Source of the DNA: an uncultured Clostridia bacterium
Lineage (GTDB): Bacteria > Bacillota > Clostridia > Oscillospirales > Ruminococcaceae
DNA: 64,000 nucleotides
Reading direction: 5' to 3'
Assembly (NCBI GenBank): GCA_944385905.1
Contig: CALWZA010000007.1
Span: forward strand, 1-64,000
The position numbers were made by a program, and so were the translations under genes. Each line of letters starts with the position of its first letter. Position 1 is the first letter of the stretch. A model generated the notes under the pieces. It was not told the DNA's origin and made no database searches. It was given only the letters and a program-made list of their open reading frames with translations. Below, piece after piece: positions 27,956 to 29,927 of this stretch.

Positions 27956-28006
27956 CATAAAAAAGACAAAGTCCGTTCGGAATTTGAACAGGCTTTGTCT
28001 ATTTTT
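27956..28006 (-). terminator. Terminator downstream of the PASTA kinase-like gene
   Basis: The hairpin arms 27964-27978 and 27986-28000 pair along about 12 positions with one mismatch; on the minus strand they are followed by CTTTTTTATG, a good T tract. It lies just past the stop at 28018. Confidence 0.8.
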
Positions 28007-28017
28007 ATCTGATTTTA

Positions 28018-29805
28018 TCAGCCGTAATATATAGGATTACCGTTTTCGTCAAATTCAGGCATATTATCGTTTTGATTGCCCCACCAGGGATCACCGGGAA
28101 ATACATTTCCGGGGGACACGTATACAGAAACATAAACCGTCAAAATTTCACCGTCTTTTACATTTATCTCGTCGCCGATATTCTTGCTGCATCTGACGAC
28201 ATAGTCGGTCTGAACTGTAGTTGATTCAACCGTCTCAACAACATATTTTATGTTCAGCTTTGTCAGTTTATCCAGATAGTCCTTTTTGCTCATTCCCAAA
28301 TAGTCAGGCACAAGAGCTGTTTCGGGTCCAAGGCTTACCTTTACCTTAACTACCTGCACCGGGTAGAGATTTGTACCAGCGTCTATATCCTGCTCATATA
28401 TAACTCCGTTTTCATATTCAGCATTATAGTCGTATTCTGCTTCAATCCGAATCCTGTCCGTCCATACTGTATTCGCATTGACTTTTTCAAGCACCTGTCC
28501 TACAAGATTAGGCATTTCAAACATAGTGCCCTGCGGTTCGGTAGTCAGTGATGTTTCGGATGTTGACGCCGTTGTAGGTGCTGTTGTGGCTGACGTCGTA
28601 GTCGTAGTAGCCGGCCTCAGCGAATCCGACGTGCTTTCCGGAGGCTGAGTTACTACCGGCTGATTTCTTTCGCCGGACGGCAAAAGCATAACAACCAGAA
28701 CCAGCAAAACTATCGCTACAAGCACTACAAGCGCCGCAGCTCCGACAATAGCAGCGACATTGATTCGCTCGCTGCCCGCCTTATTCTGAGGAAGTCTCTG
28801 AATAGGTATAGTCTGTGTTGCACCTCTCGGAGGCTTATCCATATATTCGGGCTGCTCAAAAAGTTTTGTCACAAACTCTGTCACTGTCTGTATTCTCGAA
28901 TTGCATGACAAAGTCATAGCCTGCATTATTACCTTTGAAACATTCGGCGGCACATTGCTGTTAATATAAGCCGGCTCTCTTAAATTATCATCTGCGACTC
29001 TTGCCATCGCTTCTGGAGGCATACATCCGGTCAGAAGCCTGTATAAAACTGCCGCAACAGCGTAAACATCAGTCCATGTTCCCTGCCACTCCTTTGAGGA
29101 GTACTGCTCAGGCGCTGTATATCCCACAAAAAGCTCAGGCGAAAGATCGGTATTTGCCATTCTCTCTTCGGCGATAGCAAACCCTGTGAGTTTCAGTTCG
29201 CCTCTGTTTGTAACAAGTATTGTATCAAGACTTATTCCTCTGTGTATTATTCCGGCGTTATGTATCAGGCTGAGCGTTGTCAAAATCGGCGGGAACATCT
29301 TTTTAATCTGCTCCCATGAGAGTTCCCCGGCATTATCCTGCAAAAACTGTTTCAGCGTTATTGCCTCCACATACTGCAAAACAACGTATTCGGTATTATT
29401 TGCGTTAAACATATCCACAGCCGGCACTATATGAGAAAGAGTCCTCATTCTGGACAGCGTTTTGTTCAGCTCAATAAATTCAGACATATAATTTTTATAC
29501 TGAACCACGCAGTTTTGATTTACTGTAATCTCTGTACTCTCCTTTGTTCTTGTACACAGCGCATCCGGCATATATTCCTTAATCAATACCTTTTCACTCG
29601 CCACCATGTCGTAGCCGATATACACAGCGGATTCCCCGTTATATGACAATAATTTTCCGGCTATATATCGTCCGTCCAAAACAGTTGCGGGGGGAAGATA
29701 AGATTGCAGGTAAGGCAGTGAAGGATTATAGCTGCAGTGATTACAGAAACCGTGCTCATCAAGCGGTTCCATACAACCCATACACAGCTTAATTTTATCG
29801 TTCAT
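28018..29805 (-). CDS. PASTA-domain Ser/Thr kinase-like protein, predicted pseudokinase
   Basis: With the ATG at 29805 (AAAGGA at 8-9 bases) the product has 595 residues. It opens with a zinc ribbon (C8, C11, C21, C24). A kinase-fold domain follows (about 40-300), with VLIKEY holding the beta3 Lys. The catalytic loop reads HRGISLDTI (188-196) where HRDxKxxN is expected, and the DFG position reads TGFA (207-210). APE is present. A membrane helix (about 355-380) leads outside to a Thr-rich stretch and two PASTA repeats, opening MPNLVGQVLEKVNA and VPDYLGMSKKDYL. PASTA kinases sense peptidoglycan precursors; this one lacks the catalytic Asp and the DFG Asp, so a scaffold or sensor role is more likely. 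Confidence 0.88.
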   Translation of the reverse strand: MNDKIKLCMGCMEPLDEHGFCNHCSYNPSLPYLQSYLPPATVLDGRYIAGKLLSYNGESAVYIGYDMVASEKVLIKEYMPDALCTRTKESTEITVNQNCVVQYKNYMSEFIELNKTLSRMRTLSHIVPAVDMFNANNTEYVVLQYVEAITLKQFLQDNAGELSWEQIKKMFPPILTTLSLIHNAGIIHRGISLDTILVTNRGELKLTGFAIAEERMANTDLSPELFVGYTAPEQYSSKEWQGTWTDVYAVAAVLYRLLTGCMPPEAMARVADDNLREPAYINSNVPPNVSKVIMQAMTLSCNSRIQTVTEFVTKLFEQPEYMDKPPRGATQTIPIQRLPQNKAGSERINVAAIVGAAALVVLVAIVLLVLVVMLLPSGERNQPVVTQPPESTSDSLRPATTTTTSATTAPTTASTSETSLTTEPQGTMFEMPNLVGQVLEKVNANTVWTDRIRIEAEYDYNAEYENGVIYEQDIDAGTNLYPVQVVKVKVSLGPETALVPDYLGMSKKDYLDKLTKLNIKYVVETVESTTVQTDYVVRCSKNIGDEINVKDGEILTVYVSVYVSPGNVFPGDPWWGNQNDNMPEFDENGNPIYYG

Positions 29806-29898: not shown

Positions 29899-29927
29899 AT
29901 AATAGCAACTCAGAGTGTTTTTGTCAA
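29899..29927 (-). promoter_or_regulatory. Promoter of the PASTA kinase-like gene
   Basis: Consensus TTGACA (29927-29922) and TATTAT (29904-29899) on the minus strand are 17 bases apart. The start codon is about 95 bases downstream, leaving a leader of roughly 85 bases. Confidence 0.7.

Follow-up and report, generated by a model that had tools for sequence, protein, structure and literature searches.

Why would a bacterium keep a membrane receptor that has the fold of a PASTA kinase but has lost the residues of a working catalytic site, and what could such a protein do? The question is raised by a gene at positions 28018-29805 of the window (the whole 64,000-nucleotide stretch of DNA analysed here), which encodes 595 amino acids from an ATG at 29805 to a TGA stop at 28020-28018. 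A sequence-only reading made earlier had placed the gene correctly and called its product a pseudokinase; the strand, which it left unstated, is minus, as for every feature given with window coordinates below.

From its N terminus the protein consists of a four-Cys ribbon (C8, C11, C21 and C24; 29734-29784), a kinase domain (residues about 41-318; 28852-29685), a disordered linker, a single transmembrane helix (residues about 350-375 from the sequence, 350-374 in the model; 28681-28758), a Thr/Ser-rich stalk, two PASTA repeats (28333-28518 and 28126-28311) and a short tail. Pfam matched both the kinase domain (PF00069, 2.2e-21) and the PASTA repeats (PF03793, 6.9e-14), each repeat scoring above the Pfam cut-off (27.1 and 35.5 bits, respectively). 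The AlphaFold2 model was confident in the PASTA repeats and had a pLDDT of about 97 in the kinase domain, whose bilobal protein-kinase fold was best matched in the PDB by Serratia PpkA (5hnv; TM-score 0.83 by target length), also the best PDB match by sequence. The kinase fold, ribbon, membrane helix and two PASTA repeats that had been read from the sequence are all real. PASTA was found in 40/40 family members scanned. NCBIfam and Pfam see only a generic kinase with PASTA.

The fold is that of a Hanks-type Ser/Thr kinase, whereas the HRD Asp, the DFG Asp and the Lys-Glu pair of the active enzymes are absent. A bacterial pseudokinase is defined in general by a kinase fold in which at least one of three residues, the Lys, the HRD Asp and the DFG Asp, is missing, and the protein falls under this definition. 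In HRGISLDT (29221-29244; HRGISLDTIL spans residues 188-197) the catalytic Asp is replaced by Gly190 and the catalytic Asn by Thr195, and TGFA (29176-29187; KLTGFA at residues 205-210) stands for xDFG, with Gly208 at the position of the DFG Asp. These three replacements had been noted before; two further degraded sites had not. The glycine loop, SYNGESAVY (29620-29646), begins SYNGES, compared with GYGGFG in active relatives, and carries a clade-specific Glu58 (Glu in 152/174 dead sequences, Phe in 54/57 active relatives). The alpha-C Glu is replaced by Leu113 (29467-29469; Leu in 136/174 dead, Glu in 56/57 active), which breaks its pair with the beta3 Lys76 (29578-29580). Lys76 and the APE motif are both present, as previously described, but the Lys is atypical, since 74 of 119 relatives have Arg and 33 have Lys. 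The APEQ motif (residues 231-234; 29104-29115) is a structural anchor together with Asp246 and Arg304; Glu233, Asp246, Arg304 and His188 were kept in 174/174 sequences, some genomes being counted twice. A misalignment of the Asp positions, named earlier as what would overturn the pseudokinase call, was rejected: the alignment with active relatives (HRDISPDN...LLDFGAAR) is free of gaps, and Asp194 in ISLDT corresponds to the ordinary Asp in ISPDN and not to a shifted catalytic base. On this alignment the loss of catalytic residues is strongly supported, and the protein is predicted to be without kinase activity.

The loss is not private to the window's species. Matches to the protein, PrkC included, were found in 193/198 genomes of the same taxonomic family, and the best matches of 119 relatives were read at each site. 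The HRD Asp was never present (Gly 110, Ala 8, Ser 1, Asp 0), which speaks against chance, the DFG Asp was gone in 102 (86%; Gly in 87, Asp in 17), the alpha-C position was Leu in 97 with no Glu among the residues listed, and the catalytic Asn position was most commonly Thr (74), with Asn in 39. All 119 best matches were dead, so that the loss is conserved family-wide and the pseudokinase call is supported. A dead query biases a best-match search towards dead members. Weaker matches brought in dead members from about 25 more genomes, and among the best and weaker matches read in the family genomes we saw none in this clade with full HRD and DFG. A pseudogene or an assembly error was rejected because identical losses are seen in over 140 genomes and selection is strong. 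The gene thus appears to be near-core, not universal, in the family, with a few genomes incompletely read; one near-complete genome (G179) seems to hold PrkC only. At one locus (L099, G143:C8) the gene is interrupted by one in-frame TAG, which leaves frames of 295 and 282 amino acids; the genome is 64% complete, and the TAG is either a sequencing error or a real break.

To what lineage does the protein belong? Its nearest relatives outside the order are active, with a CxxC ribbon, GYGGFGVTY, VAVKEYLP, HRDISPDN and DFGAAR, and occur in Lachnospiraceae, other Clostridia and one genome labelled Bryobacterales. In a tree for which the columns of the glycine loop, Lys, alpha-C, HRD and DFG were masked, with a single PrkC as outgroup, all dead members fell into one clade, supported at 100/100 and set off by a long branch (0.55), among the active ribbon kinases (HRDISPDN/DFGAAR). 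The catalytic residues were lost once, anciently, in this clade. Both its N-terminal CxxC...CxxC and the kinship of its kinase domain place the protein in the four-Cys ribbon kinase lineage. Its score against NF033483 (PrkC/Stk1) was 154.5, far from the cut-off of 450, whereas the genome's own PrkC scored 575.9. The earlier description as a PASTA kinase that lost its motifs is therefore misleading if a PrkC-type ancestor is meant: both this score and the trees, with their one PrkC outgroup, point to a separate ribbon-kinase lineage. Among 398 genomes of the phylum, full-length matches to the family profile came from just two families of one order, the window's own and f5; other families matched through the kinase part only, and the proteins read there keep HRD. 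The named members of the dead clade are Oscillospiraceae, Ruminococcus and Candidatus Faeciplasma.

The active ribbon kinases, found in Clostridia and other phyla, are uncharacterised, and PpkA (5hnv) is their nearest solved relative. They share with the window's clade the ribbon, the subfamily (KEYxP after beta3, HRDISPDN, GYxPxEQ) and, in many, the membrane layout; PASTA is present in some of them as well, with six repeats in L174. They keep GxGGFG, the alpha-C Glu, HRD and DFG, all four of which the window's clade has lost. PrkC, PknB and Stk1 (NF033483) resemble the window protein in kinase fold, single membrane helix, PASTA repeats and expected role in wall sensing; the window protein, in contrast, has a ribbon, two PASTA repeats instead of three and a dead site, and groups with the ribbon kinases.

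Several unusual members were seen in these surveys. L232 (G124, a 1.1 Mb genome), which lies inside the dead clade, is short, lacks PASTA and reads HTD...NN and SFE for DFG, perhaps by partial reversal or by chance; L145 (G003, 1.2 Mb) is a short member from the same reduced-genome genus. In a Lachnospiraceae tandem of ribbon kinases, a 356-amino-acid copy (L173:5998-7065, plus strand) keeps HRD but has SGFEAA for DFG, possibly a second, recent loss. Two to four adjacent ribbon kinases form operon-like clusters at L175, L179, L180 and L237.

Selection was measured as dN/dS (NG86) in four closer pairs of related genomes and a more divergent fifth. The dead domain gave 0.013-0.083 in the four closer pairs and 0.056 in the fifth, compared with 0.06-0.47 in the linker and 0.045-0.19 in PASTA where these were computable. 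The dead domain was below the linker in every pair in which both could be computed, and below PASTA in all pairs but L004/L005, in which PASTA was marginally lower. A dead kinase kept under strong selection in nearly all sampled relatives points to a useful non-catalytic role. In addition, nine positions distinguish the dead members from the active ones. Losses account for three (Phe58 to Glu, Glu113 to Leu, Asp190 to Gly); others resemble gains (Lys104, Trp164, Arg215, Ser290 and a shifted APE context), which we infer could form a novel surface for binding or a remodelled site free of nucleotide.

The gene lies between hom upstream and pfkA downstream. A sigma-A type promoter, TTGACA-17-TATTAT (29899-29927), matches the consensus at 11/12 positions, the best of the region, and an intrinsic terminator (27958-27999, seen in the sequence; scan match 27991-27973) directly past the stop consists of a 14-bp imperfect dyad, GACAAAGCCTGTTC ... 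GAACGGACTTTGTC, and a T run. The near-consensus promoter and the terminator make the gene look like a single-gene unit, and its position alone between pfkA and hom with its own promoter, as first read, was borne out. An operon with wall genes was rejected on the same promoter, terminator and neighbours and because no gene neighbour was consistently conserved among 119 relatives.

Both an intact PrkC and a PrpC, which had been proposed as a check, were found in the genome. A profile search gave exactly two Pkinase matches, the window pseudokinase and a PrkC with HRD, DFG and three PASTA repeats on contig C8, preceded by a gene for a Stp1/PrpC phosphatase. PrkC and the pseudokinase are on different contigs, without any physical tie in the genome. 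Because PrkC is near-universal (above the curated cut-off in 196/198 near-complete family genomes), its co-occurrence with the pseudokinase is weak evidence. The only other PASTA protein in the genome is a 760-residue frame on contig 31, presumably a penicillin-binding protein.

We favour, at about even confidence, the reading that the protein is a wall-reading, single-pass pseudokinase receptor with non-catalytic signalling, most probably through docking on PrkC or its substrates, or through tuning of PrkC. We infer ligand binding by the two PASTA repeats, which outside the cell would read the state of peptidoglycan or wall precursors, and a partnership with PrkC. Inside, the ribbon and a rigid, non-phosphorylating kinase fold would offer a binding surface, and docking on PrkC or its substrates at the site of wall building would tune which substrates are phosphorylated. 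The juxtamembrane linker might itself be a PrkC substrate. Its short motif TQTIPI (28801-28818), conserved mainly in the window's subclade, is a plausible phosphosite, equally compatible with simple docking; [TS]Q[TS][IVL] occurred in 37/172 linkers (36 with TQT), compared with 1.1 expected after shuffling, in related sequences that are not independent. PrkC is the favoured target because the genome has no other active PASTA kinase, pairing of kinases with pseudokinases is common, and CD2148 of C. difficile offers a precedent.

CD2148 is a second Hanks protein with its catalytic Asp and Asn replaced, is septal and alters the PrkC-dependent phosphorylation of CwlA (PMC9674922, PMC8262956). Like the window protein, it is a membrane Hanks protein additional to the only PrkC, with both these residues replaced. 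However, compared by description only, it has no PASTA, its Asp is changed to Ser and not to Gly, and no ribbon is reported. A further-reaching form of the favoured reading, less probable but not negligible, is that the PASTA pseudokinase, near-core in this family and in one sister family, and PrkC would form an obligate pair of one live and one dead receptor, the nucleotide site having been remodelled around the P-loop Glu and an activation-segment Arg.

The main rival, a substantial possibility that we nevertheless hold to be less probable, is a scaffold independent of PrkC, which would recruit wall-synthesis or division proteins directly while PASTA targets it to sites of wall growth, in the manner of MviN with FhaA, or of EssB/YukC in assembling the type VII machine. 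The constraint on the dead domain and its clade-specific signature fit a fixed protein partner. One could be an unnamed membrane protein of 260-290 amino acids encoded directly upstream of the pseudokinase and co-directionally in about 14 relatives (L036, L041, L045, L048, L050, L053, L054, L059, L069, L072, L074, L081, L093). It has an N-terminal four-Cys ribbon in most of them, one transmembrane helix and an outer domain of about 170 amino acids; it had no Pfam or NCBIfam match, and fold comparison of the outer domain yielded nothing beyond weak BamE-like matches. It is a possible partner, but was rejected as a universal one, being present in about half of 60 relatives searched and not found full-length in the window's genome. 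The MviN pseudokinase domain (ActPs3, Mycobacterium tuberculosis) is likewise membrane-bound, fully degraded and linked to cell-wall control; it is, however, an actinobacterial fusion with a hallmark deletion in the activation loop and works via FhaA. The window protein has an activation loop of ordinary length, and no FHA domain was found in the genome, which rejects an MviN-like FHA recruitment; phospho-docking would need another reader.

It is improbable that the protein still binds ATP to carry out other chemistry, such as AMPylation as in SelO or glutamylation as in SidJ, or weak phosphotransfer. The kept beta3 Lys or Arg means that ATP binding may persist, and the catalytic-loop Asn remains in 39/119 relatives. 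However, the degraded glycine loop and the losses at the alpha-C, DFG and HRD positions leave the P-loop Glu58 as the sole widely kept acidic residue at the site. Still less probable is a sponge for PASTA ligands in which the intracellular part is irrelevant, the decoy role first suggested. Two PASTA repeats without catalysis would suit it, but the sequences lend it no support: the strongest selection acts on the intracellular dead domain and not on PASTA, which argues for a protein-binding role of that domain, and all four ribbon Cys are kept in about 97% of 119 homologues. That the protein is the degenerating remnant of an active kinase, as the loss of several catalytic residues might suggest, can be dismissed, since the frame is open in nearly all genomes, the gene has its own promoter and terminator, and a single ancient loss in the masked tree with dN/dS far below 1 refutes it.

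The protein also stands apart from published pseudokinase families (ActPs1-3, GLW, CP1, DYD, DLHK), judged by their described motifs as far as these were accessible. GLW pseudokinases have GLW for HRD, whereas the window protein reads HRG with the His that is invariant in its clade. The description of the DYD family (PMC12599244) gives a DYD motif with canonical HRD and/or DFG kept. That family resembles the window protein in being membrane-associated and from Firmicutes, and most relatives of the window protein in having a beta3 Arg and no alpha-C Glu; by the same description it is set apart from a clade with HRG and GF[CSA] (TGFA in the window protein).

Bacterial pseudokinases are a known kind, and this dead PASTA ribbon clade is a variant for which we found no description in the open literature, subscription papers lying outside the scope of the search. 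Functions are known for only a few bacterial pseudokinases, and PASTA-kinase wall sensing is generally presented as relying on a single receptor. A family-wide dead PASTA receptor next to the live one would open non-catalytic control of PrkC signalling to direct tests in common gut bacteria; an obligatory pair with PrkC, if it exists, would resemble eukaryotic kinase-pseudokinase receptor pairs in its logic. The finding is also a warning against annotating such proteins as kinases, as only one of the two PASTA receptors in each such genome would be expected to phosphorylate.
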